Assembly (NCBI RefSeq): GCF_001652265.1
Contig: NZ_LWBS01000419.1
Location: forward strand, 1-51,898
Reading direction: 5' to 3'
Source of the DNA: Rhizobium leguminosarum
GTDB lineage: Bacteria > Pseudomonadota > Alphaproteobacteria > Rhizobiales > Rhizobiaceae
Length of the DNA: 51,898 nucleotides
The notes under the pieces were generated by a model. It worked only from the letters and a program-made list of their open reading frames with translations, was not told the origin of the DNA and did not search any database. The translations under genes were made by a program, and so were the position numbers. Below, in pieces: positions 3,245 through 37,446 of this stretch (positions are counted from its first letter, which is position 1; every line of letters begins with the position of its first letter).

Positions 3245-4927
3245 CTATGACGCCGTAGCGCAACCGGCGGGGATCGAGAGAGGCTCTGCCGGCATCGCCT
3301 TGTCGATCGCGTAAAGCTTTGCGAAACCGGCATCTTCGACCAGCGTCAGGCCCGCCGGCATGAAGGTGCCGACATAGCGGTCAGGGAGATCGGCATTGGC
3401 GACGAGGATGAAATCGAAACGTCTGCGCCAATCCGACAGATAGGGCGTAAAACCCTTATATTCCTGCATCATTGCCGGGCATGAAAGCACGCCGATCGAT
3501 AGCAGATTACCCTCTGGAACCGCGATCTCAGACCATGGTGTCAGAACCGATAGCGGCTGCTTGCCTTTTGCCGTGAAGAGCGTCGGCACAAAAGCATGCG
3601 AGAAGGGCACGGCAAGCGTTGGTAGGTGGCGGAAAGTATCCAACCCCCAGGCAAAATGCCGGTTGGAGTGGGCAAGACCGTTCACCGTCTCGGGTTCGTG
3701 CCCCAAAGGCAGCACGGCCGCGCCGGCCGGTACCTTTTTGAGCACAGCTTCGACGGCAGCAACATCCTTTTGTGCCAGCCACCAGTTCCAGCCGACCCAG
3801 CCGGTGCGGCCGAAGACCGCGAGATTGATGGTGAGCGCCAGCAATAGCGCCTGCCGGCGCGTGAGATTGGCGAAGGGGCACACCATCGCCATGGCGACGA
3901 GCGCCGTCATGATCGGAAAGCGCCAACTGATCCATCCGGTGCCGAGCATGTGGCGAGGCGAAACACAGGACAGAAGCAACAGGCCGCAGGCGGCGACGGC
4001 AAGCCCCGCATGCATGCGGATGTCGCCCGCGCGGACGGCACGCGTGCAGATGAGGATCAGTGGCAGAACCAGCACGACATCCACCACCGGAACATAGGTC
4101 GTGATGGCGGAGAGCAGATTCAGGACGATCAGGACGATGCCGTCGTTCCAGGCAAGGCCAAGGCCGTTGCCACCGGCGTTGGGCAAAGCCGCCGTATGGA
4201 GATAGAGCGCGAGCGGCGGCAGAACGCAGGCGCCAAGCGCCAGCGCCAACCGGCCGGCGAGCCGCATCAGACCCGCCTTCGATCGCACTATATCGATGCG
4301 CCAGGAAAATTCGAGGCCGCAGACGATCGCCATATAGAAGCCAAGCGCGAAAAGATGCATCACCGTCAGCAGCAGCGCGGCGGCGAGCCGCCAGGCAAAA
4401 ACCAGGGCGGGATTTCTACCCTGCAGCCGGAGATCGATGCAGGCAAAGCCGAGCGCCATGCCGAGGCCGATCTGGAAGTTGATGAAGCCGCCGATCATGG
4501 TGGCGCACCAGCTAAGCGACAGCATGGCGGTCTGCCAGTGGTGCCGGCCACCGAAAAGCGCGCGGTGCAGGCCGATCGCGCCCAGTGGCGGCAGCACGAT
4601 CGCCAGGAAAAGCAAAGCCCGCGCAAGCCTGTCGGCACCGACAAGCGGCCCCAGCCACGTGGCTAGAACGTCGATCCCGACATTGGTGAAGGTGCGGTTC
4701 CAATCGACGGCATAGATCTCAGGAAACGGCTGCTCGCCGATCCCGCCCGAAAGGAGCCAGATACGGGCGTAATGATTGGCGTAATCGAGAATTGGCGGAA
4801 AGGGAAACAGGAGAACCAAAGCCGCGGCAAGTCCGACGAAAGCGACGATCGCAACGGTGGAGTCCTGTCTGGCAATCAATTTCTCAGGCCCGGCTGCGGC
4901 CAAGGCAGGAGCGGCAATCCGGTCCAT
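3245..4927 (-). CDS. Polytopic inner-membrane protein, possibly a GT-C type glycosyltransferase
   Basis: A 560-residue protein with ten or more hydrophobic segments in the first 400 residues, for example near residues 25-45, 105-125, 140-165, 180-205 and 225-245, and then a soluble C-terminal part of about 150 residues. The early acidic motif PPILDYANHYAR follows the first membrane helix, where GT-C enzymes carry catalytic acidic residues. That resemblance is suggestive only. Its start codon overlaps the stop of the upstream glycosyltransferase gene by one base (TAATG), which implies translational coupling. The pair would fit transfer of a polyprenyl-phosphate sugar to a periplasmic acceptor: the neighbour makes the lipid-linked sugar and this protein uses it. 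The acceptor is unknown. Confidence 0.75.
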   Translation of the reverse strand: MDRIAAPALAAAGPEKLIARQDSTVAIVAFVGLAAALVLLFPFPPILDYANHYARIWLLSGGIGEQPFPEIYAVDWNRTFTNVGIDVLATWLGPLVGADRLARALLFLAIVLPPLGAIGLHRALFGGRHHWQTAMLSLSWCATMIGGFINFQIGLGMALGFACIDLRLQGRNPALVFAWRLAAALLLTVMHLFALGFYMAIVCGLEFSWRIDIVRSKAGLMRLAGRLALALGACVLPPLALYLHTAALPNAGGNGLGLAWNDGIVLIVLNLLSAITTYVPVVDVVLVLPLILICTRAVRAGDIRMHAGLAVAACGLLLLSCVSPRHMLGTGWISWRFPIMTALVAMAMVCPFANLTRRQALLLALTINLAVFGRTGWVGWNWWLAQKDVAAVEAVLKKVPAGAAVLPLGHEPETVNGLAHSNRHFAWGLDTFRHLPTLAVPFSHAFVPTLFTAKGKQPLSVLTPWSEIAVPEGNLLSIGVLSCPAMMQEYKGFTPYLSDWRRRFDFILVANADLPDRYVGTFMPAGLTLVEDAGFAKLYAIDKAMPAEPLSIPAGCATAS

Positions 4928-5985
4928 TATCCGATCCGGCTGTTCTTTTGCGAGCGCGGCGGCTCTTCGGATGCGAAGGCCGCATCCAGCGCCGTGCGCC
5001 TGTCGCTGGCGCTCATCTCCGAGAAAGCGATCGACAGTTCCGCGTGTTCACTGCCGCGCACGATCGTCTCGACCATGAACATCGGCCGCCTCTTACTCTC
5101 CTGCACCAGACGGCCGAGATACTCGCCGATGATGCCGATGCAGATCAGCTGGATGGCGCTGAAGGCGCTGACCGCGGCCATGATCGACGACCAGCCGGTC
5201 ACCGTCTCGCCCTGCAGCCAGCGAACAAAGGTGTAGACGAGCAACGCGATCGCGACGCCCGCACTCATCATGCCAAGCCAAGTGCTGATGCGCAGCGGCG
5301 TCGTCGAAAAGCTGGTGATCGCATCGAGAGCGAAATTGATCATCTTGCGCAACGGATATTTCGTCGTGCCGGCAAAACGGGCGTCACGCTCGTAGGGGAG
5401 AGCCACCTGCCTGCCGCCGATCCAGCTGACCATCCCGCGGATGAAGCGATCGCGCTCCGGCATCGCCAGCAGGATATCGACGACGCGCCGGCGCATCAGC
5501 CGGAAATCACCGGTATCGCGCGGAATGGTCACGGAAGCGAGCTTGGACAAGGCGCGATAGAAAAGCGAAGCGGAGGCCAGCTTGAACCAGCTTTCGCCCT
5601 GACGGCGCGTGCGCTGGCCGTAAACGACGTCGGCGCCGCGCTCCATGATCGGCATCATCATCAAAAGCAGTTCGGGCGGATCCTGAAGATCGGCATCGAT
5701 CAAAAGCACGCGCTCGCCCCGCGACGCGGAAAGACCCGCCGTCGCTGCCAGCTGGTGGCCGTGATTGCGCAGAAGACGAACACCAAGCACCTGCGGCACA
5801 TCTGCCGCCAGATCCGAAATGATCTCCCAGGTGCGGTCGGACGAGCCGTCATCGACGAGAATGAGCTCGAAGGCATCGCCGGCGACGCTATGAGCGGCAG
5901 CGGCAGCGCGGCGGCAGAACTCGCGCAGCCCTTCTTCCTCGTTGTGACAAGGCGCGACGATGGAAAGAAATGGGACTTGCGCCAT
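4927..5985 (-). CDS. Glycosyltransferase family 2, polyprenol-phosphate sugar synthase type
   Basis: A 352-residue protein with a GT-A domain at residues 1-230: SIVAPCHNEEEGL at the start, LVDDGSSDRTW for the nucleotide, DADLQDPPE as the metal-binding DxD, and DTGDFRLMRRRVVD for the acceptor side. Two C-terminal membrane helices follow (about 235-260 and 270-295). This layout matches the DPM1/GtrB/ArnC group, which links a sugar to undecaprenyl phosphate on the cytoplasmic face. It is the first gene of a two-gene unit with the membrane protein downstream. The sugar transferred cannot be read from the sequence. Confidence 0.9.
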   Translation of the reverse strand: MAQVPFLSIVAPCHNEEEGLREFCRRAAAAAHSVAGDAFELILVDDGSSDRTWEIISDLAADVPQVLGVRLLRNHGHQLAATAGLSASRGERVLLIDADLQDPPELLLMMMPIMERGADVVYGQRTRRQGESWFKLASASLFYRALSKLASVTIPRDTGDFRLMRRRVVDILLAMPERDRFIRGMVSWIGGRQVALPYERDARFAGTTKYPLRKMINFALDAITSFSTTPLRISTWLGMMSAGVAIALLVYTFVRWLQGETVTGWSSIMAAVSAFSAIQLICIGIIGEYLGRLVQESKRRPMFMVETIVRGSEHAELSIAFSEMSASDRRTALDAAFASEEPPRSQKNSRIG

Positions 5986-6076
5986 GCTGACGTCGGTGCC
6001 TGCTTGATGTTTGGCGCCAGACTAGCGATGAAACGTCAAACATCCTTTAACGATTGGCTACCGGTCGCAGGGCCAA

Positions 6077-6985
6077 CTATTCCGCCGCCATGATCTCGCG
6101 GGCGCCGTCAATATCGCGGGCCGGCGAGGCGCCGTAGAGGCGGCTGTATTCGCGGCTGAACTGCGACGGGCTTTGATAACCGACGCGGTGACCGGCCGTG
6201 CCCGCATCGAGCCGCTCCACGAGCATCAGCCGGCGCGCCTCGTGCAGGCGAAGCTGCTTCTGATACTGCACCGGCGTCATCGCCGTGACCGACTTGAAGT
6301 GATGATGGAAGGACGACACGCTCATGCTGACGCGGTCGGCAAGATCTTCGATGCGCAGTGGGCGCGCGAAATTCTCCTTCAGCCATGCGACGGCGCGCGC
6401 GACCCTGTTGCTGTGGCTGTCTGCAGTGGCGATGTTGATCAGCCGCGCGCCATCCGGCCCGGTCAGCACCCGATAGAGGATTTCCTGCTCAATCAGCGGC
6501 GCCATGGCAGGAATGTCGCCTGGACGATCGAGCAAGCGCAGCAGGCGGACGGCAGCATCCAGGAGCTCCGGCGGAGCGACGTTCACCGCCATCCCGCGCT
6601 GTCCGTCGGTATCGGCGGCTGGGCGCGGAATATCGATCCGGCTGAGCAACTCCAGCAGCTTTTCCGAATCGATTGCAAGCCCCAGGCAGAGATGCGGAAC
6701 CTCAGGGCTTGCCTCCGTGACGCGCCAGGCGACCGGCAGGTCGAGCGAGGTCAGCAGATAGTCGCCAGTCCCGTAGCTGATAAGTTCCGTGCCGAGGCGC
6801 AAGCTCTTGGCGCCCTGCAGGACAAAGGCAAAACAGGGCCGGTAGCTGCTGTGCAGCGGATCGCTGGGCTTGGACCGACGGCTGATGTGAAGATTGCCGA
6901 TATCAGTCGCAAACTCGCCGTCACCAGCCGCGAAGCGCATCGCGATATCGACAATTTCCTGATAGGGGCTGAAGGGCAAAGTCAT
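6077..6985 (-). CDS. AraC family regulator with AraC_N domain (YqhC-like)
   Basis: A 302-residue protein. Residues about 20-175 match the AraC N-terminal arm domain, with HSSYRPCFAFVLQGAKSL and YGTGDYLLTSLDLPV. Residues about 195-290 hold the double helix-turn-helix with FARPLRIEDLADRVSMS and GYQSPSQFSREYSRLYG. It is divergently placed from an alcohol dehydrogenase gene. This matches the E. coli arrangement in which YqhC activates the aldehyde reductase gene yqhD in response to reactive aldehydes. By analogy it probably senses aldehydes and activates the neighbour. That is inference from context and domain type. Confidence 0.9.
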   Translation of the reverse strand: MTLPFSPYQEIVDIAMRFAAGDGEFATDIGNLHISRRSKPSDPLHSSYRPCFAFVLQGAKSLRLGTELISYGTGDYLLTSLDLPVAWRVTEASPEVPHLCLGLAIDSEKLLELLSRIDIPRPAADTDGQRGMAVNVAPPELLDAAVRLLRLLDRPGDIPAMAPLIEQEILYRVLTGPDGARLINIATADSHSNRVARAVAWLKENFARPLRIEDLADRVSMSVSSFHHHFKSVTAMTPVQYQKQLRLHEARRLMLVERLDAGTAGHRVGYQSPSQFSREYSRLYGASPARDIDGAREIMAAE

Positions 6986-7076
6986 GCGGCAACTCTTTCT
7001 GTCAACTGTCTGACGCCGGCGATACCGCTCTTATCTAGAGTGCCTTGGCCATTTCACAAACAGGCCGGCGCCTCAC

Positions 7077-7096
7077 TTTTGCAGGATCGTGCAAAA
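7077..7096. promoter_or_regulatory. Inverted repeat between araC-type gene and adh, candidate activator site
   Basis: TTTTGCA and TGCAAAA flank the 6-base spacer GGATCG. The site lies between the divergent regulator (start 6985) and dehydrogenase (start 7190), about 95 bases from each. A seven-base perfect inverted repeat in this position is a good candidate for the AraC-type protein's binding site. Confidence 0.45.
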
Positions 7097-7189
7097 AGCT
7101 GAGAGGATCGCTCTAACCCTCTGCCGCAGTTCCGGGCAATAGTCCACCATCTCTTTCAACCCCCACCACAATCGAAAAGGATGGTTCCC

Positions 7190-8236
7190 ATGCCTATTGC
7201 AAGAGGCTACGCCGCGACCGACGCTTCCCAGCCGCTGACCCCTTTCACCTTCGAACGCCGCAACCCGAACCCCGACGACGTTGTTATCGACATCAAGTTT
7301 GCCGGCATCTGCCATTCGGACATCCACACTGTCCGCAACGAATGGAAGAACGCCGTCTATCCGATCGTGCCGGGCCATGAGATTGCCGGGATCGTCTCGG
7401 CCGTCGGTTCTGATGTGACCAAATTCAAGGTCGGCGATCGCGTCGGCGTCGGCTGCTTCGTCGATTCCTGCATCGGCTGCGCCGAGCGCGACCTCGATCG
7501 GGAACAGTATATGCCGGGGCTCGCCGGCACCTACAATGACTTCGAAGCCGACCGCAAGACACGGACCCAGGGCGGCTATTCCGACTCGATCGTCGTCAGG
7601 GAAGGCTATGTCATGTCCATTCCGGACAATCTGCCGCTCGACGCCTCCGCGCCGCTGCTCTGCGCCGGCATCACGCTCTACTCGCCGCTGCGCCACTGGA
7701 ATGCCGGCCCCGGCAAGAAGGTCGCGATCGTCGGCATGGGCGGCCTCGGCCACATGGGCGTCAAGCTCGGCGCCGCCATGGGCGCTGATATCACCGTTCT
7801 CTCCCAGAGCCTTTCCAAGAAGGAAGATGGGCTGAAGCTCGGCGCCAAGGAATATTACGCCACCAACGACCCGGAAACCTTCACGAAGCTCGCCGGCACT
7901 TTCGACCTGATCATCTGCACCGTCAGCGCAGAGATCGACTGGAATGCCTATCTCGGCCTCCTGAAGGTGGATGGCTCCTTCGTGGTGGTCGGCGCGCCAG
8001 AAAACCCGATCCCCGTGCATGCGTTCTCGATTATTCCCGGCCGCAAGAGCATATCAGGCTCGATGATCGGCTCGATCAAGGAAACCCAGGAAATGCTCGA
8101 CTTCTGCGGTGAGCACAACATCGTCTCCGAGATCGAGAAGATCAACATCCAGCAGGTCAACGAAGCCTATGAACGCGTCCTGAAAAGCGACGTCCGCTAC
8201 CGCTTCGTCATCGACATCGCCTCGCTGGCGGCTTGA
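7190..8236 (+). CDS. NAD(P)-dependent alcohol dehydrogenase, zinc-type medium-chain
   Basis: A 348-residue protein of the cinnamyl-alcohol/YahK-like branch of zinc medium-chain dehydrogenases, interconverting alcohols and aldehydes with NAD(P)H. The catalytic zinc ligands are visible in GICHSDIH and GHE, and the Rossmann motif is [12 protein letters not shown] near residues 178-189. An oddity is that the structural-zinc loop reads [16 protein letters not shown], so only two of the usual four cysteines are present. ATG 7190 is preferred over ATG 7181 because AAAGGA then stands at a normal distance. A rho-independent terminator follows directly. The divergent AraC-type regulator probably controls it, and aldehyde detoxification is the likely role. 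Confidence 0.92.
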
Positions 8237-8245
8237 GAAAATGAG

Positions 8246-8273
8246 AGGCGGCTCCTTTGGGAGCCGCCTTTTT
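8246..8273 (+). terminator. Rho-independent terminator after the alcohol dehydrogenase
   Basis: A perfect 10-bp stem (AGGCGGCTCC with its complement) and a TTTG loop, followed by five T. It begins ten bases after the stop codon at 8236. Confidence 0.92.
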
Positions 8274-8296
8274 GGATAACGGCATCCTCAATCCGT

Positions 8297-8405
8297 CCTC
8301 ATGCTGAGGCGCGTAGCCCTTAGGGCGAAGCCTCGAAGCATCACCCGGAGCGCCCGCCCCCTGCTTCGAGGCTTCGACCTTCGGCCTCCGCACCTCAGCA
8401 TGAGG
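8297..8405. repeat. Nested palindromic intergenic element (Rhizobium mosaic-element type)
   Basis: The outer arms CCTCATGCTGAGG (8297-8309) and CCTCAGCATGAGG (8393-8405) are inverted copies. Inner arms GCCTCGAAGCA (8330-8340) and TGCTTCGAGGC (8362-8372) are also inverted. The whole would fold into a long two-step hairpin. The style resembles dispersed rhizobial intergenic elements, but copy number could not be checked. Its right edge overlaps the 3' end of the convergent GTPase gene and supplies that gene's stop codon. Confidence 0.8.
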
Positions 8406-10347
8406 CTCTCGTGGACTGCAGCCGCAGCAGATATTCGACTGGTTTGAACGGATCGGGGCCTGAACGCTGGCGCGAACGTGGCGGGCCGGCCATCGGGGCA
8501 TAATGGTCGAAAGAGGCTTCCATTATCCCCGTCCCGCTGGTCAGGCCCGGCAATTGCTGCTGGACGCTCTGGATCATCGCGGACGCTATGGTGCCTTCCA
8601 GCCGGGCCATGCCGTCGGCAATCACGGAATCCGTCATCGTCGCAGCAGATTTCGCAAGCAGGGTCAGCAAGCCGCTCAAGCTCTCCGCGGGCGCTTCAAG
8701 ATGAAAGCGGTCGATCGGCTCGCATATCACGGTCTGGGCGGCCGATAACGCCATTGCCAGCACCCATGGCGTTAGTTGCCGGAAATCGGCGGCGGTGCTT
8801 GCGGGCGAGCTGTGCCGGGCTGCCGTCATCGCCACGTGGCAATCGATGACCTGCCAGCCGAAAACGCCCTGCTTGAACGTTTCGAACACGGTTTCTTCGA
8901 CTGCCCTGTAAAAGCTGGCGGGCATCTGGCCGACATCCACTTCGAGCGCAAAGCTGTTGCCCGCCCCGGGAGGGCGCGGCTCGACGCGCAGGCCGACGGT
9001 TGCCAGGAAGGGATTGGGCTCCTTGAAAAGGATCTGCAGGCCTGCCCCGGTCCCGACGGGCCTCTCGACCAGGATGACAGTGCTTTTCTCGAACCTTGCC
9101 TCAAGGTTGAAATCCGTCAGCAGGGTCGATTGGATAACCTCCTTCTGCACCTCGCCGTAGAGCGACACGAAGACTTCGTCCGCCTCCTCGTTCCGGCGCA
9201 GATTGATCAAGGGATCCTGTTCGGCCATCTGGTTCAGCGCCAGCCAGAGCGCCTCCTTGCCGGAAGGCCGCCGGGCAAGAACCCGGGTTTCGAGCGTAGG
9301 CGGCGCGAAATGAGCCCGCCCGCCCGCGGGATCGCCGCCCACCGCATCCCCGATGCGGGCACCGGCAAGGCCGCTGATGCGCGCGATCTGCCCGGCGCGG
9401 AGGCTCTCGGCGCCATGAACCCGGCCGGCCTCGAACACATGGATCGCGGTCACCCGTTCCGGGCCTCTGGGCAGGTCCAGATATTGCCGGAGCCGCACCG
9501 TGCCTGAGGCCAGGTAGATGTAGGAGAGCTTTTCCCCGCCCCAGCCGCGTTCGATCTTGAAGATCTTGCCCGCAACCGGACCATCCGGATTGGGGCGCCG
9601 CTCGGGCAGGATCGTCGCAATGGCCGATGCCAGGGCGGGGATGCCGACGCCGGTCATCGCGGCTCCTGCGAAGACGGGATGCACGAGGCCGCTCGCCACC
9701 TGATCGGCTAGGCAGCGCCCGAGCCTTTCCTCCGTCAGCCAATCGGGAGCAAGTACATAGTCATCGAGCAGCGCCTCATCGTTTTCCCCGAGGGTCTCGC
9801 AGAGCGCCGAAAAGAGTGGCTCGTCTCCCAGAGCAAGCGTCTCCACGCGGACAAGCTTGGCTCCCGCATCGATGACCGAAGACATGGCGATGGGGCGGAC
9901 CGCCAGCTGCGCGGCAAGGGCCTCGACAACCTCTTGATATCGCGCGCCGAGACGATCGACCTTGTTGACAAAGAAGACGAAGGGAACGCCAAGCCGCCGC
10001 AACGCCCGCACCAGCACCCGCGTCTGGGCCTGCACGCCTTCAACCGCCGAAACGACGACGACCGCGGCATCCAGCAATCCGAGCACCCGCTCGACCTCGG
10101 CGATGAAATCCGGGTGACCGGGCGTGTCGATGAGATTGACGATCCTGTCGCCGATCATGAACGACACCACCGCGGCTCTGATCGTGATGCCGCGTTGCCG
10201 TTCGAGTTCGAGAGTGTCCGTCTGTGTATTGCCGGTATCGACGCTGCCGAGCTTGTCGATGACGCCGGCGTCAAAAAGCAGTCTTTCGGTAAGGCTAGTC
10301 TTGCCTGCATCCACATGGGCGAGGATGCCCAGATTCAAAGTGCGCAT
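8395..10347 (-). CDS. Elongation-factor-like GTPase of the tetracycline ribosomal-protection (TetM/TetO) family
   Basis: A 650-residue translation GTPase. The G motifs are clear: HVDAGKTS at 11-18, DTPGH at 74-78 and NKVD at 128-131, with RGITI in switch I. They are followed by EF-G-like domains II-V. The length and architecture fit the TetM/TetO/OtrA group, which removes tetracycline from ribosomes by GTP hydrolysis. Chromosomal members in soil bacteria are not proven to give resistance, so the substrate is uncertain. The last residues, about RASC, and the TGA stop come from a palindromic repeat that overlaps the gene end. A good promoter lies about 120 bases upstream, leaving a long untranslated leader. 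Confidence 0.88.
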   Translation of the reverse strand: MRTLNLGILAHVDAGKTSLTERLLFDAGVIDKLGSVDTGNTQTDTLELERQRGITIRAAVVSFMIGDRIVNLIDTPGHPDFIAEVERVLGLLDAAVVVVSAVEGVQAQTRVLVRALRRLGVPFVFFVNKVDRLGARYQEVVEALAAQLAVRPIAMSSVIDAGAKLVRVETLALGDEPLFSALCETLGENDEALLDDYVLAPDWLTEERLGRCLADQVASGLVHPVFAGAAMTGVGIPALASAIATILPERRPNPDGPVAGKIFKIERGWGGEKLSYIYLASGTVRLRQYLDLPRGPERVTAIHVFEAGRVHGAESLRAGQIARISGLAGARIGDAVGGDPAGGRAHFAPPTLETRVLARRPSGKEALWLALNQMAEQDPLINLRRNEEADEVFVSLYGEVQKEVIQSTLLTDFNLEARFEKSTVILVERPVGTGAGLQILFKEPNPFLATVGLRVEPRPPGAGNSFALEVDVGQMPASFYRAVEETVFETFKQGVFGWQVIDCHVAMTAARHSSPASTAADFRQLTPWVLAMALSAAQTVICEPIDRFHLEAPAESLSGLLTLLAKSAATMTDSVIADGMARLEGTIASAMIQSVQQQLPGLTSGTGIMEASFDHYAPMAGPPRSRQRSGPDPFKPVEYLLRLQSTRASC

Positions 10348-10475
10348 GAACCACCAACTTCTCAGAATTTCGAATGTGATTTTCGTGAGAAGTGAATCGG
10401 CGCATTGGAACCTCTACCTGGTGATGGCGACGGCTGGATGCAGAACCCCCGTGGTCTTCGGAGGACGCGGGCGGA

Positions 10476-10505
10476 ATGGTAGAGGCGTGTCGGGAGATAT
10501 GTCAA
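10476..10505 (-). promoter_or_regulatory. Sigma-70 type promoter for the TetM-like gene
   Basis: On the minus strand, TTGACA (10500-10505) is followed by an 18-base spacer and TACCAT (10476-10481). Transcription should begin near 10469, giving a leader of about 122 bases before ATG 10347. Confidence 0.6.
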
Positions 10506-10528
10506 GATTGGGCGGCGTGCTTGGCGTC

Positions 10529-10676
10529 CCCCTCTGCCCTGCCGGGCATCTCCCCCACAGGTGGGGAGATCGGCTGGACGCACCGATTTCCCCAAATAAT
10601 CGGCGTCGCAGCTCGATGAACCGCAACAGGTGGCATCTCGCCACCTGTGAGGGAGATGGCCGGCAGGCCAGAGGGG
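10529..10676. repeat. Palindromic intergenic element of about 150 bp
   Basis: The outer arms, CCCCTCTGCCCTGCCGGGCA (from 10529) and its near-complement ending at 10676, pair over about 26 bases with few mismatches. Inside are two smaller hairpins: ATCTCCCC near 10549 with its complement, and CAGGTGGC/GCCACCTG at 10627-10647. The modular, nested structure is like the RIME-type elements of Rhizobium. The 388-base gap between the two neighbouring genes holds only this element and the promoter region of the TetM-like gene. Confidence 0.8.
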
Positions 10677-10734
10677 ACTCACAGGGTATGCCCCTTCCTC
10701 ATGTCGGTCCTCGAGCTTGACCCAAAGAAGCGCT

Positions 10735-12000
10735 TTACCCCTCCTCCCGCATCGTCTCTCGCTGGGTGATCAGCCGGGCGCTGTGCTGGCCGCTGAGATA
10801 AATCCACAGCCAGCTCCAGGCGACGGAGAAGCGCGAGCGGGTGCCAATCAGGAAGTAGATATGGGCAAGGCCCCAGATCCACCAGGCGAGCCAACCCTTT
10901 AGCTTGATCCGGCCGAAATCGATGATCGCAGCACTCTTGCCGATTGTCGCCAAGCTGCCCTGATGCCAGTAGCGGAAGGGCGCCGGCGCCGGTTTGCCGG
11001 ATATGCGGGCGCGGATCACCTTGGCGACGTATCCGCCCTGTTGCTTGGCGGCGGGCGCAATGCCTGGCACCGGCCTGCCGTCCTCGCGCATGACGGAGGC
11101 GGTATCGCCGACGACGAAGACGTCGGGCAAACCAGGCGCGCTCAGATCCTTCTCGACCACGACGCGGCCCGCCCGGTCGGCCGCAACGCCGAGCCACCTT
11201 GCCGCCGGCGAGGCGGTGACGCCGGCTGCCCAGACGATCGTCCGGCTGGCAACGAAGGTCTCGCCGATCTTCACGCCGTCGGCGTTGCATTCGGTCACCG
11301 GCTTGCCGAGATGGATCTCGACCCCGAGCTTCTCCAGCGCCTTCTGCGCATAGGCCGAAAGCTCCTCGGCGAAGGTCGGCAGCACCCGCGGGCCGGACTC
11401 GACCAGCACGACGCGCGTCTTGCGCGTGTCGATGTTGCGGAACTCCTTGGGCAGCGTGAAATGCGCGAGCTCGGCAATGATGCCGGCCAGCTCGACGCCG
11501 GTCGGCCCGGCCCCGACGATGGTGAAGGTCAGCAGCGCGTCGCGCACGGCAGGATCGCTCTCCATCTCCGCCTTCTCGAAGGCGAGCAGCACGCGCCGGC
11601 GGATCGTCGTCGCATCCTCAAGGGTCTTCAAGCCGGGCGCCACCGGCTCCCATTCGTCGTGGCCGAAATAGGCATGCGTCGCCCCGGTCGCCAGCACCAG
11701 CGTATCGTAACCAAGAGTCATGCCGTTGCTTAAGGAAACCGTCTTCGCACCGCTGTCGACGCCGGTGATCTCTCCGAGCAGCACCGTTACGTCAGGCCGG
11801 TCGGCATAGAGGCGGCGGATCGGCCAGGCGATCTCCGAGGTGGAGAGAATGGTGGTCGCCACCTGATAGAGCAGCGGCTGGAAGAGATGGTGATTGCGGC
11901 GGTCGACCAGCGTGATCCTGACACCGGCATCCTTCAACCCGTTGACGAGCTGCAAACCGCCGAAACCGCCGCCGACAACGACGACATGATGATCGCTCAT
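10735..12000 (-). CDS. Type II NADH:quinone oxidoreductase (NAD(P)/FAD-dependent)
   Basis: A 421-residue single-subunit flavoprotein that passes electrons from NADH to quinone without proton pumping. The FAD motif is VVVVGGGFGGLQLV at the N-terminus, and LYQVATTILSTSEIAWPIR, typical of NDH-2, follows. The NADH motif FTIVGAGPTGVELAG is near residues 162-176, and VFVVGDTAS closes the FAD site near 297. The C-terminus has an amphipathic or membrane-attaching segment rich in tryptophan (LAWWIWGLAHIYFLIG). It stands alone, with a palindromic element downstream and an Lrp-type regulator upstream on the same strand. The symbol ndh would be reasonable by homology. Confidence 0.92.
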   Translation of the reverse strand: MSDHHVVVVGGGFGGLQLVNGLKDAGVRITLVDRRNHHLFQPLLYQVATTILSTSEIAWPIRRLYADRPDVTVLLGEITGVDSGAKTVSLSNGMTLGYDTLVLATGATHAYFGHDEWEPVAPGLKTLEDATTIRRRVLLAFEKAEMESDPAVRDALLTFTIVGAGPTGVELAGIIAELAHFTLPKEFRNIDTRKTRVVLVESGPRVLPTFAEELSAYAQKALEKLGVEIHLGKPVTECNADGVKIGETFVASRTIVWAAGVTASPAARWLGVAADRAGRVVVEKDLSAPGLPDVFVVGDTASVMREDGRPVPGIAPAAKQQGGYVAKVIRARISGKPAPAPFRYWHQGSLATIGKSAAIIDFGRIKLKGWLAWWIWGLAHIYFLIGTRSRFSVAWSWLWIYLSGQHSARLITQRETMREEG

Positions 12001-12109
12001 GACCTACCCCTTTTGCGCCATTTCGCTCAAAGCCAATGTGGCCTTCGCCGCGTTAGTTGCAACTGCCGTTTCAGCATACCTCCCCTGCATCCCGGTCGGT
12101 GGAGCCGGC

Positions 12110-12574
12110 TCAATCGGCATACCCCACGGGGATCGCCGTGCCGCCCTTCAGAAGCTCCATCGAGATCGAGGCCGAGACGTCGAAGAGCTCGATCTTGCGC
12201 ACGATCTGCTTGTAGATCACGTCGTAATGCTCGACGCGCGGCAGCACGATCTTCAGGATGTAGTCGTGATTGCCAGTCAGCCGGTGCGCTTCGACGATCT
12301 CGGGAATGTCGCTGATGATCCGGCGGAAGGTCTCGGTCCATTCGTCGGAATGATGCGCCGTCTTGACCAGGGCGAAGACCGTTGTCGGCACGCCCATCTT
12401 TTCCCGGTCGAGCACGACGATGCGCCGGGCGATATGGCCGCTCTCCTCCAGCCGCTGGATGCGCCGCGAGCAGGCCGATATCGAAAGCGCCACTCGCTCG
12501 GCAAGATCGGTCACGGATATGCCGGCATCCTTCTGCAATATATCGAGAATGCGCCTGTCGCGATCATCCAGCAT
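12110..12574 (-). CDS. Lrp/AsnC family transcriptional regulator
   Basis: A 154-residue protein with the full two-domain Lrp layout. The N-terminal helix-turn-helix covers residues 1-60 (LDDRDRRILDILQKDAG, then VALSISACSRRIQRLEE). The C-terminal RAM/ligand domain has GNHDYILKIVLPRVEHYD near residues 98-115. It is divergent from an Asp/Glu racemase gene with 157 bases between the start codons, and that gap contains a perfect inverted repeat. The likely role is amino-acid-responsive control of the racemase and of itself. The effector is not known. Confidence 0.92.
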   Translation of the reverse strand: MLDDRDRRILDILQKDAGISVTDLAERVALSISACSRRIQRLEESGHIARRIVVLDREKMGVPTTVFALVKTAHHSDEWTETFRRIISDIPEIVEAHRLTGNHDYILKIVLPRVEHYDVIYKQIVRKIELFDVSASISMELLKGGTAIPVGYAD

Positions 12575-12607
12575 GTGTCAAACGCAAGCCTTTCGCCTTA
12601 TTTTTGC

Positions 12608-12635
12608 ATGGTTTTGCCAATCAGCGCAAAACCAT
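12608..12635. promoter_or_regulatory. 10-bp perfect inverted repeat, candidate Lrp-type operator
   Basis: ATGGTTTTGC and GCAAAACCAT flank the 8-base spacer CAATCAGC. The site is 34 bases upstream of the lrp-type start codon and about 97 bases from the racemase start, so one dimer could govern both genes. Confidence 0.6.
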
Positions 12636-12731
12636 ACCACATATCTTACGCAAGAGACAAACAACGCAAACACACCGCACCGAGATTGCGGCATCATTTT
12701 CGAAGGTTCAGAAGCATGGGAGCTTGAAGAA

Positions 12732-18385: not shown

Positions 18386-18399
18386 GCCAACGCTTGTCG

Positions 18400-18432
18400 C
18401 CCCTGTCCTTTGGTTTAACCTAAGGACAGGGG
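18400..18432. terminator. Stable hairpin after the quinone reductase gene
   Basis: CCCCTGTCCTT pairs perfectly with AAGGACAGGGG, and the loop carries GGTT/AACC, which extends the stem. It begins 15 bases after the stop. There is no T-run, so termination is plausible rather than certain. The 226-base gap to the next gene (a convergent one) holds nothing else I recognise. Confidence 0.5.
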
Positions 18433-18611
18433 TGCAGTAGACACCGATCTTGACTGCAAAAAGCTTCATTCCAGCTGCGCCATTCACGACGAAGACGCCC
18501 CGCGGCTGGATTCTGCAACAAGAACGTGACCGAGGGACCGCTGGAGAATACCGCGCTGATTCTCGAAACGAGATCGCCAGACGGCTTCATGACACAGGAA
18601 ATAGCCGCTCC

Positions 18612-20441
18612 TCAGAATTGGGAGACGAAGCGAGGCGGTTTTTCCCTAAGGTCGAGCCCGTATTCAAGCTCGGCCCGCATCCAGAGAACACCGCTTTCAT
18701 AGGGATCGTCAGACATTGTCTCAGCTCGAGCGTCTGCGACATTGCTGTCAGCCCAGTTCTTGACGCACGCGCCGTTCTCGCGTTTCCGCTCATTCCGATC
18801 GATTGCACACCATTCTCGTCGTTCGTCAAACGGAACCCATGCTAGACCATCCCGGAAACAGGTGATGGCCCGATATTTCGGCTCGACGACAATGTTCCCG
18901 GCGGCGTCCGCAATGCCCCAAAGCAAGGTTCCGTTCGAATTCCTGGAGACGCGCTGTCCGCCATCTGCTCCGCATCGCAACCTTGATCGCCGATCCTCCG
19001 GGCGGCGCGGCTCGGAAACTTCACGTCCTGATGTGTCGATCCAAAACTTCCGCCCATCCTTCGATACAGCATAGGCGCCGGCGTCAGACCCCAGCTCATC
19101 AAACTGTGGAGCGACGGCTAGCATGCCGTTGCTGTACAGTATTCCCCATTTGCCCTGAACCTTGACGCCGGCATAACCATTGATGAAATTAAATTGGTCC
19201 TGAAATGACGGCGGATCGACAAGCAGTTTGCCGTCCTTGTTCAGAAACCCCCATTTTCCATTGTACCGAACCGACATGGGAAATTTGCAAGTCATGTACG
19301 TGTCGTCAAAGAGATACGAAACCGTCGGCTTTTCGTCCGCTCCGACGACCTGAATACGGCTGCCGTTGCGCCTGAATTTGATGCCCGACGGACATACCGC
19401 AAGCACCTTCCCATCCTCTGGGTCGGGTACCACGTTTCCGGCCCGGTTGAGCCCAACCCACCGGCCATCGACCAATATTCTGGCCACATCACCGGAATCC
19501 GGCAGTATCGCATCGTCGAACAGACGCCCGCCGAGCAACCGTCCCGCCTCATCAAGGACGCCGGCTTTCTTGTCTTCGGCCACACGGTAAAAACCGTTTC
19601 GATAGCCCTGGATCCTAAACCGCTGTGGTGTGAGAATAGTTTGACCGTCCCGGTCGATCACGCCGCATTGGGTGGCGTCGGCCAGGCCATGTTGGGCGGA
19701 CTGATCTTTGTGTCCGGCCGGCCGGCCATAACAGACAATTGCTCTTCCTCCATGGAGTTTACCGACTGTTTCGAAGCGAGGCTCGATCTTCCAGGTTCCG
19801 TCGGGAGCAAGCAATCCGTATCGTTTATCTCCCGGTTGAGCGGCCCAGACGAAAGTACCGAAGTCGAATTCTTTAATGGCCAGCTCGTCCTTCAGGATGT
19901 TTCCCGAGAGCAGATCGACGAGCAGATAGCGTGGATCGTCCCTCTCGAAGAGCAGTTCCCCGATCATGAAACGCGGGAAGCCAAAAGATTCCGGCACGAT
20001 CGCTTTGCCGGGACGAACGAGTGCCGCGTCGGCGGCGAATGGGATGGCACGCGCGTAATTCGGCGGCAGTACAAGCTTTCCCGTCCTGTCGATGATTCCT
20101 GCCTTGTCACCGGCCACCACCTCGGCATGGCCTTTGCGAAATGCGCGGGCAAGATCGAACATGGGCGCGATCACCATATCGTCACTCGAATTGATATAGC
20201 CGAATTTGCCCTCGGAACGCACGGCGGCCAGCCCCTCCGAGAAGGGAAGTCCAACTTCGAACTTGCGATCGATCCGCGGTTCTGACGTCGCTCTGTCGAC
20301 ATAGCCGCAAAGAGCGTAGACGCCGCCGCACCTTTCCACCCATCTTTCCGGCCGGGGATCGGCGACCCCGGCTCCAGCGGAGCAGAGCAAACACGCCCAT
20401 GCCGTCGTGACAAACATAAGTTGACGAGTAACTACTCTCAT
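18612..20441 (-). CDS. Secreted WG-repeat protein
   Basis: A 609-residue protein with a signal peptide (residues 1-28, cut after GAGVAD). The rest is a chain of WG-type repeats of about 45 residues. Examples are SEGKFGYINSSDDMVIAP, GDKAGIIDRTGKLVLPP, NGKWGFLNKDGKLLVDPP, QGKWGILYSNGMLAVAPQ and LLWGIADAAGNIVVEPK. WG repeats fold as beta structures of unknown role, often on the cell surface. The mature protein carries several cysteines. Translation from an in-frame ATG at 20561 is possible, but ATG 20441 places the signal peptide at residue 1. It stands alone between convergent qorB and co-directional pdxJ. Confidence 0.85.
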   Translation of the reverse strand: MRVVTRQLMFVTTAWACLLCSAGAGVADPRPERWVERCGGVYALCGYVDRATSEPRIDRKFEVGLPFSEGLAAVRSEGKFGYINSSDDMVIAPMFDLARAFRKGHAEVVAGDKAGIIDRTGKLVLPPNYARAIPFAADAALVRPGKAIVPESFGFPRFMIGELLFERDDPRYLLVDLLSGNILKDELAIKEFDFGTFVWAAQPGDKRYGLLAPDGTWKIEPRFETVGKLHGGRAIVCYGRPAGHKDQSAQHGLADATQCGVIDRDGQTILTPQRFRIQGYRNGFYRVAEDKKAGVLDEAGRLLGGRLFDDAILPDSGDVARILVDGRWVGLNRAGNVVPDPEDGKVLAVCPSGIKFRRNGSRIQVVGADEKPTVSYLFDDTYMTCKFPMSVRYNGKWGFLNKDGKLLVDPPSFQDQFNFINGYAGVKVQGKWGILYSNGMLAVAPQFDELGSDAGAYAVSKDGRKFWIDTSGREVSEPRRPEDRRSRLRCGADGGQRVSRNSNGTLLWGIADAAGNIVVEPKYRAITCFRDGLAWVPFDERREWCAIDRNERKRENGACVKNWADSNVADARAETMSDDPYESGVLWMRAELEYGLDLREKPPRFVSQF

Positions 20442-20608
20442 CCTAGCGCCCCCCGGTTGAACGAACCAGGAGATGCTCGTGTGTTGGAAATATGGCCAAT
20501 CTGCGGGTCGGATGTCACGAGCACAGGAATCCCTGCACTCGAGCACGGGAGATCCTCGCAATGCATCAAGTTAGTCGCCACCAATACGCGAGAAGAAAAC
20601 GCCCTTCT

Positions 20609-31692: not shown

Positions 31693-32471
31693 ATGACACC
31701 AACCCGAGCGTAACCGAAGCCGACCTCCACGCCTATGCCGACGGCCAGCTGCCGGAAACGGCACGCGCCCGCATCGATGCCTTCCTGGCAGACAATCCCG
31801 ACGAGGCGGCGATGGTCGCCGAATGGCAGGCGCAGAATACAGGCATCCGATCGCTGTTTGCAGGCTATGAAAAAACAAAGGAAACCGACGCTCTCCTGGT
31901 TTCGCCGCCGCGCGGCATCTCTTCCGGGCGGAAACGCGCCGCGATCGCCGCAGCCGCCCTCCTCGTCTTCGCGCTCGGCGCCGTCAGCGGTCATTATGGT
32001 CCGGCCCTTCTGGAAAAACCGGAGTTGCAGCTTGCCGCCTCCGAAACCCTGCCGAAACAGGCTGAGACCGCCTTCATGGTCTATGCCGCCGAGGTTCGCC
32101 ACCCCGTCGAAGTCTTCGCCAACGAGGAGGCCCATCTCGCCACTTGGCTCGGCAAACGCCTGGCGATAGAGAATCTCAAGATCCCGAATTTGCAGTCGCT
32201 CGGCTTCAAGCTGGTCGGCGGCCGCTTGCTGCCGGTCGATGGCAGGCCGGGCGCCATGTTCATGTATGAAAACCAGGCCGGCGAGCGACTGACCGTCCTG
32301 GTCGGCCGCAACACGGAAAACCGCACGACGAGTTTCCGCTTCGCCTCATCCGACAATCTCGAGACCTTCTACTGGATCGACGGCGAACTTGGCTACGCCG
32401 TCACCGGCGAAATCTCCCGCGAGACGCTGCGGGAGGTAGCTGAGGAGTGCTACCGACAATTCCCGTCGTGA
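31689..32471 (+). CDS. Anti-sigma factor, transmembrane
   Basis: A 260-residue protein. The N-terminal part (about 1-60, VTEADLHAYADGQLPE and an ALQ-like helix) is the sigma-binding anti-sigma domain. One membrane helix (about residues 83-105, [21 protein letters not shown]) separates it from a periplasmic domain of about 150 residues. Its ATG overlaps the stop of the sigma gene (ATGA), so the two are translationally coupled and made in similar amounts. It would hold the sigma factor at the membrane until an envelope signal releases it. The periplasmic domain is unlike any sensor that I recognise. Confidence 0.88.
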   Translation: MNDTNPSVTEADLHAYADGQLPETARARIDAFLADNPDEAAMVAEWQAQNTGIRSLFAGYEKTKETDALLVSPPRGISSGRKRAAIAAAALLVFALGAVSGHYGPALLEKPELQLAASETLPKQAETAFMVYAAEVRHPVEVFANEEAHLATWLGKRLAIENLKIPNLQSLGFKLVGGRLLPVDGRPGAMFMYENQAGERLTVLVGRNTENRTTSFRFASSDNLETFYWIDGELGYAVTGEISRETLREVAEECYRQFPS

Positions 32472-32474
32472 GGA

Positions 32475-32861
32475 TCAGCGCGAGGGATCGTTGCTAAGCT
32501 CGATCGGCCGTCCGTGCGGCGTCGCTTCTGCCGCCCGCTGCCAGCTCTGCTGCAGCGCCAGGATCGTTTCCGCATCGGCGATGCCGTTGTCGACGATGAG
32601 GTTGGAGAGTGCCGCCACCCAGCAGTCAAAATAGTCGCTGCCATCTTCGGCCCGGCCAGGCTTGTGCAATTGCGCGGAAAGCGTTTCAGCCCATTCGCTC
32701 CAGCTGAACAGGCCGTTTGCGTGCAGATGCACGGTCATGGCAAAAGCTTCGGCCGCCCAAGGCTCGGGAAAAACCGGCTCGCCCTCCGGCGATCTCGGCA
32801 GCCCGGACGATTGCGTCAGCGGCGATATCTCATGCCGGCGCAAGATAGCTCTCCCAGGCAT
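32475..32861 (-). CDS. Nitrile hydratase accessory protein
   Basis: A 128-residue protein of the nitrile hydratase activator family, which carries cobalt or iron into the alpha subunit. LPRSPEGEPVFPEPWAAEAF followed by LHANGLFSWSEWAETL is characteristic of the family, which is related to the beta subunit's N-terminus. ATG 32861 lies inside the 3' end of the beta gene, overlapping it by 32 bases, the compact layout of a nitrile hydratase operon. The usual client, the alpha subunit, is missing from the window, so the protein is probably without function. The reading frame itself is intact. Confidence 0.85.
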   Translation of the reverse strand: MPGRAILRRHEISPLTQSSGLPRSPEGEPVFPEPWAAEAFAMTVHLHANGLFSWSEWAETLSAQLHKPGRAEDGSDYFDCWVAALSNLIVDNGIADAETILALQQSWQRAAEATPHGRPIELSNDPSR

Positions 32862-33414
32862 CGATCGACACGGTCAGCGTGGGATCGGCATCTCCGCCCC
32901 AAATCTCCGCGCCGTCGAAAACGACCGTATAGAGCCATTGCGGGTTCTCGCCCTTGCCATGGGCATTATCGTCGGGAAAGACGAAAGAGCCCTGCACCGC
33001 CTCGACCATTCCGGTCCTGGCGCGGGCATAACGCGGCAGGCGCGTATGTGTGACCGGATTGAAATTCTTGGTCTTCACTGTCTCACCGACCACGAAGAGC
33101 GGCGCGGTCTCGACAGGACGATCGCAAGGGCCGCCTTTCGCCAGAACGCCGGGCACCATGTCCGCCTTCAGCACGCGTTTTGGAACCGCTCCCGCCTGCT
33201 GCGCATGGCCGGACAGTAATTCCGCGCGCGTCGCAAAGCCGTGCCGTTCAAGCAGCATGTCGATGCCGCGGATCCAGATTTCGTAGTAGCTGGCAGCGAG
33301 ATAATCGGCCGGCGGAATATTCTCGCGCGCATGCCGGCTTTCGTCGATCGTCCATGCGCCGAAAGCGCCGCAGGAAAGTGTGATGCCGAGCGCCCGCTTT
33401 TCCCATTCGGCATC
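32830..33414 (-). pseudogene. Nitrile hydratase beta subunit, 5' end deleted
   Basis: The frame encodes about 194 residues beginning DAEWEKRALGITLSCGAFG, then DYLAASYYEIWIRGIDMLLERHG, and ending DAWESYLAPA. Family members are about 220-230 residues and begin with a conserved segment that precedes the AEWE motif. That segment and any start codon are gone. Upstream sequence is a LysE-type gene in a different frame, cut at the same place. The natural partner, the alpha subunit with CxxCSC metal ligands, is not in the window. I read this as the residue of a deletion between lysE and the beta gene. The beta and accessory frames remain overlapped at their junction. Confidence 0.82.
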
Positions 33415-33760
33415 ACTGGAAGGCGGCCGCCGCGAAGAAGGACATCGGCTCGACGCCGCTCCTGCCTTCGCTGAGCGAGCGCGAGGAGGCGATCTTCCAG
33501 GCGATCCAGACGAGATAGGCGCCGCCCGCAAATTTCAGCGCGGTATAGACCATAGGCACCGTGTGCAGCAGCGCGCCGAGCCCAAGGCCGACGCCGATGA
33601 GCAGCGAGAAGAACCCGACGCCGATGCCGAACATATGCGGGATCGTCCTGCGGAAACCGAAATTCACGCCCGATGCGAAGAGCATCATATTGTTCGGCCC
33701 CGGCGTGATCGAGGTCGTGAAGGCGAAGAGAACGAGGGCGAGAAATGTATCCAGCGGCAT
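33413..33760 (-). pseudogene. LysE family exporter, C-terminal half deleted
   Basis: A 115-residue frame with a good start (GGGAGG ribosome site, ATG 33760). It begins MPLDTFLALVLFAFTTSITP and goes on with GPNNMMLFASGVNFGFRRTIPH, as LysE proteins do. It stops at FQ, just where family members continue with a tryptophan, and full-length members have about 200 residues. Roughly half of the membrane helices are lost. The lost end is joined to a nitrile hydratase beta fragment in another frame. Transcription from its promoter might still run into the remnant. Confidence 0.85.
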
Positions 33761-33797
33761 GCGACCTCCCGAAGCCAGCTTTTCTGCGGCCTGTTTA

Positions 33798-33822
33798 TTT
33801 AGGTCAGCATAACTGTCCTAAA
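33798..33822. promoter_or_regulatory. 25-bp inverted repeat between lysE remnant and aldo/keto reductase
   Basis: TTTAGGTCAG and CTGTCCTAAA pair with one mismatch around CATAA. The site lies 38 bases upstream of the lysE start and 90 bases upstream of the reductase gene. It may be the old operator of the exporter gene. The regulator is not evident. Confidence 0.5.
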
Positions 33823-33912
33823 CCATCGATGCCATTACATCATTGTCATGGTGACAGGATTACTTGAAAGATGGCGACCCGGCCCAATCTCCTGTCAAAG
33901 GGACAGAAAACC

Positions 33913-34761
33913 ATGCAGGACGACCCGATTCCAGCGATCACATTCCCGAACGGTACTGAGGTGCCGGCGCTCGGCCAGGGAACCTGGGCCATGGGCGAGG
34001 ATGCCGGCGATGCCAGGGCCGAGATCGAAAGCCTCAAGGCCGGCATCGGTCTCGGCATGACGCTGATCGACACCGCCGAAATGTACGGCGACGGTGGCGC
34101 CGAGGAGATCGTCGGCCAGGCGATCAGGGGCCGGCGCGACGAGGTCTTCATCGTCAGCAAGGTCTATCCCTGGAATGCCAGCATGAAAGGCACGATCGAG
34201 GCCTGCGAGCGCAGTCTCGAACGCCTCGGCACCGATCGCATCGATCTCTATCTGCTGCACTGGCGCGGAAATTATCCGCTCACAGAGACCGTCGCGGCCT
34301 TCGAAACGTTGAAGGCATCGGGCAAGATCGGCGCCTGGGGCGTCTCCAATTTCGACACCGACGACATGGAGGAACTGCTTGGAGTGCCCGACGGCGCCAA
34401 CGTCGCCGCCAACCAAGTGCTCTATAACCTTTCCCGCCGCGGCATCGAATTCGATCTGCTGCCCTGGTGCCAGAGCCGCGGCATTCCCATCATGGCCTAT
34501 TCGCCGATCGACCAGGGAAGCATCCTGCACCATCCCGAGCTGATCCGCATCGCCAAGGCCTATCAGGCAACGCCCGCCCAGCTGGCACTCGCCTTCCTGC
34601 TGGAACGCGACGGCGTCATCGTCATTCCGAAGACGGCAAATGCCGAACGCGCAGCGGAAAACCGCGACTGCGTCTCGCTCGACATCACCGACGATGACTG
34701 GGATGCCCTCGACGCCGCCTTTCCGCCGCCCACAAAGAAAAAACCGCTGGAGATGCTCTGA
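33913..34761 (+). CDS. Aldo/keto reductase
   Basis: A 282-residue NADPH-dependent reductase with a TIM barrel. The N-terminus has [16 protein letters not shown]. The catalytic tetrad is visible as D in LIDTAEMYG with Y of MYG, K in IVSKVYPWN and H in LLHWRGNYP. The NADPH segment [13 protein letters not shown] closes the domain. Length and motifs match the YakC/AKR-type group. ATG 33913 is supported by AAAGGGA. It stands alone after the lysE/nitrile hydratase scar. The physiological substrate is not known. Confidence 0.92.
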
Positions 34762-35414: not shown

Positions 35415-35460
35415 CGCATAACTCCGAAAATCGGAAACGATTTTCGGAAAGGATTATGCG
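35415..35460. repeat. Hairpin element between ilvI and ilvH
   Basis: The inner arms CCGAAAATCG and CGATTTTCGG surround a GAAA loop, and the outer arms CGCATAA and TTATGCG close it. The same inner hairpin occurs at 26748-26771. Within an operon it could protect the mRNA or shift the balance between the two subunits. Confidence 0.7.
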
Positions 35461-35474
35461 CAAAATTAAAAATG

Positions 35475-37265
<1,791 letters not shown>

Positions 37266-37325
37266 CTGTCTGTTCCGTTTGATGCTGGGATTGCGTTTGT
37301 GGCCGGAAGCCCGAATTTCGGGCAT

Positions 37326-37348
37326 AAAAAAAGGCCCCTGAGGAGCCT
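37326..37348 (-). terminator. Attenuator terminator in the ilvIH leader
   Basis: On the minus strand AGGCTCC pairs with GGGGCCT around TCA and is followed by seven T. It lies 60 bases upstream of ilvI and after the leader peptide, so it can stop transcription before the operon. Confidence 0.88.
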
Positions 37349-37356
37349 GTCATCTA

Positions 37357-37404
37357 GCGCATGGGTGGCTATCGCCGGATGGTTACACCATCCTGCCCAT
37401 GCGC
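37357..37404 (-). promoter_or_regulatory. Competing leader hairpin of the ilvIH attenuator
   Basis: GCGCATGGG and its exact complement CCCATGCGC span 37357-37404, and GGATGGT/ACCATCC makes a shorter inner stem. The long stem overlaps the 3' end of the leader peptide gene, so a ribosome stalled on the peptide would prevent its folding and alter terminator formation, as in classical attenuation. Confidence 0.75.
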
Positions 37405-37439
37405 TTTCCCACCACGATAAGAGCCGTTGCGATTTTCAT
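37383..37439 (-). CDS. ilvIH leader peptide
   Basis: An 18-residue peptide, MKIATALIVVGKRMGRMV, ends at TAA 37383-37385. Seven of its residues are Ile, Leu or Val, including the run LIVV. It precedes hairpins and a terminator in front of ilvI, the design of branched-chain amino acid attenuators. Scarcity of charged Ile, Leu or Val tRNA would stall the ribosome and permit read-through. The predicted transcription start falls at or within a base or so of the ATG, so the peptide is probably translated from a leaderless mRNA, as the Sinorhizobium trpL peptide is. Confidence 0.85.
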   Translation of the reverse strand: MKIATALIVVGKRMGRMV

Positions 37440-37446
37440 GGTCGGA

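Follow-up and report, generated by a model that had tools for sequence, protein, structure and literature searches.

A probable single deletion of 2.8 kb joins lysE to a truncated nitrile hydratase beta gene in a Rhizobium leguminosarum genome

How did the first half of a lysE gene come to lie directly against a nitrile hydratase beta-subunit gene that has lost its beginning, and what does this mean for the enzyme? The window considered here, meaning the whole stretch of DNA that was analysed (51,898 nucleotides, Rhizobium leguminosarum contig NZ_LWBS01000419.1, C419 in our numbering), is an entire contig without any N, in which 33 kb and 18 kb flank the junction between the two genes. A preliminary description, based on the letters alone, had read this junction as the scar of a deletion. 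The features at issue are the following.

33413..33760, minus strand: what remains of lysE, namely codons 1-115 of 197, then a TGA formed across the junction
32830..33411, minus strand: what remains of nthB (nitrile hydratase beta), namely codons 27-219, with the start and the first 26 codons gone
32475..32861, minus strand: intact accessory/activator gene of the nitrile hydratase, with an overlap at the end of nthB
33413..33414, no strand: proposed deletion junction, the last nthB-side base followed by the first lysE-side base
32830..33531, minus strand: chimeric open frame, accidental in our reading, with a TTG start, 39 codons of an alternative lysE frame, one junction codon and nthB codons 27-219

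The lysE remnant starts with the ATG at 33760 and reads to ...AAAFQ before meeting the TGA at 33415-33413, giving a product of 115 residues, compared with 197 in Rhizobium johnstonii 3841. This product matches PF01810 only at profile positions 2-82 of 193, which confirms the truncation originally noticed where the frame stops at FQ. Similarly, the beta frame was said to begin at AEWEKR in another frame and without a start codon of its own at that place, and this is indeed how it reads: it picks up at 33411 and runs to a stop that ends at 32830, and its 193 residues correspond to residues 27-219 of 219 and to positions 27-226 of the 226 in TIGR03888 (195.9 bits, cut-off 152.2), again confirming a truncation. 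The first in-frame start available to it is a TTG at 33531, within lysE sequence, and the next ATG, GTG or TTG is the ATG at 33258. The accessory protein obtained 103 bits against TIGR03889 (cut-off 46), in agreement with the earlier view that this gene was left intact. The TIGR03889 and TIGR03888 matches assign the accessory gene and the greater part of nthB to a nitrile hydratase operon (alpha, beta, activator), whose layout is described in an excerpt of PMC7321127 as three frames, nhA, nhB and activator, that often overlap. Compared with such an operon, the window locus has a headless beta and is without the alpha subunit, whose absence beside beta had also been remarked upon: a PF02979 search of the genome gave matches on contigs C402, C231 and C5 only, and none on the contig of the window.

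The source genome falls within the Rhizobium leguminosarum complex. Its locus was compared at the base level with that of Rhizobium johnstonii 3841 (NC_008380.1) and of five other complex members. The intact region of 3841 (about 3,386,000-3,390,400) has the order lysE - DUF2269 - SDR/DoxX_3 - nthA - nthB - accessory gene, and the window keeps this order outside the gap: the nthB-side alignment spans 1,014 bases at 98.7% DNA identity, and its lysE-side counterpart 515 bases at 96.3%. What the window lacks with respect to 3841 is the DNA between nthB codon 27 and lysE codon 115: according to both the BLASTN break points and the base-level comparison, the sequences flanking window positions 33413/33414 lie 2,812 bp apart in 3841, and the corresponding interval measures 2,812 (two genomes), 2,815, 3,037 and 4,230 bp in the five other relatives. 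In 3841, it contains nthB codons 1-26, nthA, an SDR/DoxX_3 gene (424 aa) and a DUF2269 gene (158 aa), the latter two on the opposite strand, and lysE codons 116-197. The nthA product matches TIGR01323 with 302 bits and carries the metal-binding motif CxLCSC as CTLCSC, which we take to indicate a nitrile hydratase of the cobalt type.

The preliminary description had looked to intact relatives for a verdict on its reading. In all six relatives compared at the base level, lysE and nthB are both whole, and the alignments break at exactly the junction base. In a genus search with window positions 32400-33900 (148 genomes, the source genome G000 plus 147 others), the sole unbroken match among those listed was the source genome itself; in the relatives among the matches listed, the first half ended at query positions 1009-1014 and the second half, where listed, started at 1015 (window position 33414), kilobases off. 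Chance is not a sensible explanation of this pattern, because the relatives compared at the base level have unbroken genes on both sides and cease to align with the window at this very base. The comparison with relatives thus bears out a single deletion running from within lysE to within nthB and taking nthA with it. The extent of the loss had been foreseen in part: portions of lysE and nthB together with nthA are gone as proposed, and, judged by 3841, two opposite-strand genes and the region upstream of nthA, which had not been predicted, went as well. These two genes are less constant neighbours than lysE and the nitrile hydratase genes, because only 45/80 (SDR) and 43/80 (DUF2269) of the named loci carry them within the fetched stretch; nthB and the accessory gene were present at at least 85% of their length in 80/80 and lysE in 71/80, and nthA was in all 80 by selection, the loci having been fetched through it.

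The TGA that closes the lysE remnant is made by the join, with TG contributed by lysE and A by nthB. Short microhomology, which had been suggested for positions 33410-33420, is absent and the join is blunt: 0 bp are shared at the break in the comparisons with 3841 and the five other relatives, and no direct repeat of at least 7 bp lies within 60 bp of the two 3841 break points. A deletion mediated by repeats or microhomology was considered and rejected in view of this 0-bp overlap and the lack of a nearby direct repeat of that length. Four matches over cut-off to the Ku domain (PF02735) are found on two contigs of the source genome. In an excerpt of PMC10932983, deletions made by non-homologous end joining (NHEJ) on a small plasmid of R. 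etli show no microhomology and remove at most 136 bases, usually between one and six; deletions of 214-343 bp in S. meliloti and others reaching 1,399 bp in M. smegmatis are also quoted there. The present junction is like the deletions of R. etli and Sinorhizobium meliloti in being a join without microhomology in a Ku-bearing rhizobium; in contrast, its 2,812 bp exceed the rhizobial examples quoted in that excerpt (up to 136 and 343 bp). A blunt join does not single out NHEJ, because by our estimate about one unguided join in two would show zero homology.

The reading that we hold to be very probable is a single illegitimate deletion of 2.8 kb, most likely by NHEJ, that killed the nitrile hydratase of this locus; divergent paralogues elsewhere in the genome could still act. 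In this event, lysE codon 115 would have been fused to nthB codon 27 on the chromosome with no guiding homology. End joining of a broken chromosome was perhaps the route, and is the likeliest one. Lost would be nthA, the SDR/DoxX_3 gene, the gene for the DUF2269 membrane protein and parts of lysE and nthB; left behind would be a truncated LysE, an nthB without a start and an intact but orphaned accessory gene.

If the segment was deleted, it should not be present on other contigs. A search of the assembly (completeness 93.4%) with 2,427 of the 2,812 bp, the other 385 holding most of the lysE tail, recovered only nthA paralogues at 69-70% identity. DUF2269 gave no match in the source genome; as a positive control, 3/3 relatives each gave a clear match, and G032 gave an additional weak one. 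Likewise, the SDR/DoxX gene is 90-100% identical in 3/3 relatives, and its best match in the source genome reaches 28%. The LysE family, for its part, retains 15 other matches in the source genome.

The presence of an nthA elsewhere with a matching beta had been named as a finding that would speak against the deletion. Other alphas do exist, and two of the three have a beta of their own, but they are divergent paralogues and not a moved copy. The cluster on C402 (L036) has the order beta, alpha, accessory gene, with an upstream GTPase that looks CobW-like, and that on C231 has the order alpha, beta, accessory gene; identity to the subunits of the damaged locus is 55-56% for the alphas of these two clusters and 28-33% for their betas. 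The alpha on C5 is 43% identical to the lost alpha over 146 residues and has neither a beta nor an accessory match on its 13.3-kb contig by tblastn. A relocated alpha was accordingly rejected. A 20-kb stretch of C402 aligns from end to end with a plasmid of R. leguminosarum at 99.1% identity, and the nitrile hydratase genes of C231 are 94.4% identical to genes on another R. leguminosarum plasmid; the two clusters are therefore not foreign to the group.

The lone alpha of contig C5 lies inside a gene cluster (L037, about 4350-12700). By Pfam, its members include GTP cyclohydrolase I, adenylosuccinate synthetase- and lyase-like genes, a radical SAM gene (QueE-like), IMPDH/GMP reductase, a phosphoribosyltransferase and a PTPS gene (QueD-like), to which QueC and HAD genes can be added by the names given to the annotated plasmid copies. 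The cluster resembles that for the deazapurine nucleosides toyocamycin and sangivamycin, in which toyJ-L encode a three-subunit nitrile hydratase according to an excerpt of PMC12648386. Literature searches for toyocamycin with Rhizobium returned articles on actinomycetes, judged by title, and those for 7-deazapurine with Rhizobium leguminosarum returned none, so that no report of a cluster of the C5 type was found by these two queries. Copies 97-100% identical to the C5 cluster are present on 8 R. leguminosarum plasmid records.

An alternative to a deletion in the cell is that the locus is intact in the strain and that the join was made by the assembler, by a chimeric read or by mixed strains. 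The assembly is fragmented and slightly contaminated (472 contigs, completeness 93.4%, contamination 5.4%), and the junction occurs in no other genome searched. Moreover, the best-matching relative switches at the junction. We divided the window into tiles of 250 bp, dropping matches of less than 150 bases and computing margins from the 192 of 206 tiles that had six or more relatives. Across the two tiles that flank the junction, identity to 3841 drops from 99.2% to 95.6%, and in the adjoining tile 3841 leads the next-best relative by 5.2 points, one of the five largest margins among the 192. This margin leaves some probability for a chimera or an imported tract. On the other hand, an assembler had no repeated word to be misled by, because nothing of at least 7 bp is shared within 60 bp of the break points; the whole contig is free of N; the aligned segments of its 33-kb and 18-kb flanks follow the order of 3841, several further insertions and deletions aside; and neither the lost SDR gene nor the lost DUF2269 gene was found on another contig. 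Weighing these points, we consider an assembly artefact unlikely and infer that the event was physical.

The same tiles bear on a second alternative, in which the deletion is real and was made during the uptake of R. johnstonii-like DNA, with homologous recombination on the nthB side and an illegitimate join at the junction. Homology-facilitated illegitimate recombination is a mechanism of this kind, in which one side is homologous and the other join illegitimate. The four tiles covering 32414-33413 are 97.6-99.2% identical to 3841, which is their unique best match out of 12 relatives, and this tract ends at the junction, although G065 and G032 are closer than 3841 over the whole window (mean identity 94.9%, 94.6% and 93.4%, respectively). 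However, mosaic tracts are common here: a step at least as large as the 3.6-point one at the junction occurs at 58/186 tile boundaries, 12 different relatives are best somewhere in the window, and other margins reach 10.4 points. In addition, the 3841-like tract may have continued into the deleted DNA before the deletion. Uptake as the occasion of the event therefore appears improbable, and it would still be a real deletion.

A third alternative, namely that the chimeric frame started by the TTG is a working beta, or that the accessory gene is now transcribed from the lysE promoter in a re-wired operon, we regard as very remote: lysE, the nthB remnant and the accessory gene do stand on one strand with little between them and the chimeric frame is open, but a chance frame of lysE takes the place of the 26 N-terminal residues of beta, the contig retains no alpha, and none of the best 120 of 7,583 homologues covers more than 86% of the frame (118 of these 120 are 219 aa long), in a protein collection clustered at 90% that could hide a copy of the chimera. 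We do not think that the chimeric frame is expressed. A scan of 32400-34000 gave no sigma-70-like site (0 found, 0.5 expected), a result that says little for rhizobia.

Returning to the deletion, its junction appears to be private to this genome. A pattern of 33 bases spanning it, with up to 3 mismatches allowed, was found in 1/148 genomes of the genus, taken as one genome per species, and in 1/394 genomes of the family, 8 of which belong to the genus; in both cases the hit was the source genome itself. The exact pattern was not found in a contig collection that may leave out the window's own record, and no record of the plasmid collection covers at least 80% of the window's stretch. Synonymous and nonsynonymous codon differences from 3841 number 9 and 0 in the nthB remnant, 2 and 1 in the accessory gene, and 10 and 2 in the lysE remnant, and the remnants carry no further stop codons. 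With no nonsynonymous change in the nthB remnant and no new stop in the remnants, the deletion looks recent.

Across the genus, a search with the alpha of 3841 found some nitrile hydratase alpha in 144/147 relatives, 143 of them at E 1e-88 or better, and gave no match in the other three (G063, G064 and G145). The orthologue of nthA is near full length and without internal stop in 141/147 relatives. The exceptions with a match are G040, where it is split, and G047 and G020, where it is shortened; in these three genomes (L162, L163 and L164, respectively), nthA contains a small frame-shifting indel next to a complete or nearly complete nthB and accessory gene, and in G020 the indel adjoins short single-base runs, which makes a sequencing error possible. 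Damage to this gene may thus have occurred repeatedly within the genus. That the chromosomal nthA of Rhizobium is repeatedly lost, perhaps under selection, with paralogous nitrile hydratase clusters that have plasmid-borne close relatives replacing it, is conceivable and in our view doubtful.

As for function, the N-terminal part of beta is presumably needed for the enzyme. From the genes that remain, no active nitrile hydratase is expected from the window locus, whose activity would have been lost. The total nitrile hydratase activity of the strain need not be, because two complete, divergent clusters remain, and these could hydrate nitriles. For comparison, a nitrile hydratase of R. leguminosarum bv. 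trifolii was obtained soluble in minor amounts upon cobalt addition, as stated in an excerpt of PMC7321127. Taken as a single event, the deletion amounts to an ordinary loss of genes for an accessory catabolic function. The strain, if obtainable, would be a natural mutant without one nitrile hydratase, the DUF2269 membrane protein, the SDR/DoxX protein and one LysE-family exporter. The locus also illustrates how a truncated gene could be mistaken for one that encodes a working enzyme, since the 193 residues that remain of beta score above the family cut-off.

Three further observations concern the rest of the window. About 2.2 kb at 18387-20608 are absent from the 3841 locus and include an open frame of 649 codons on the minus strand (18612-20561) that looks by eye like a WG-repeat protein. 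A dispersed repeat of ~65 bp, absent from the corresponding place in R. johnstonii 3841, lies at 35415-35479 and has 30 partial copies among the 39 source-genome matches listed (40 of 260 candidates were scored). Finally, positions 5916-7769 of contig C445 are 71% identical to window positions 35586-37444, which hold most of an acetolactate-synthase-like gene, and are either paralogous to this stretch or among the contaminating 5% of the assembly.
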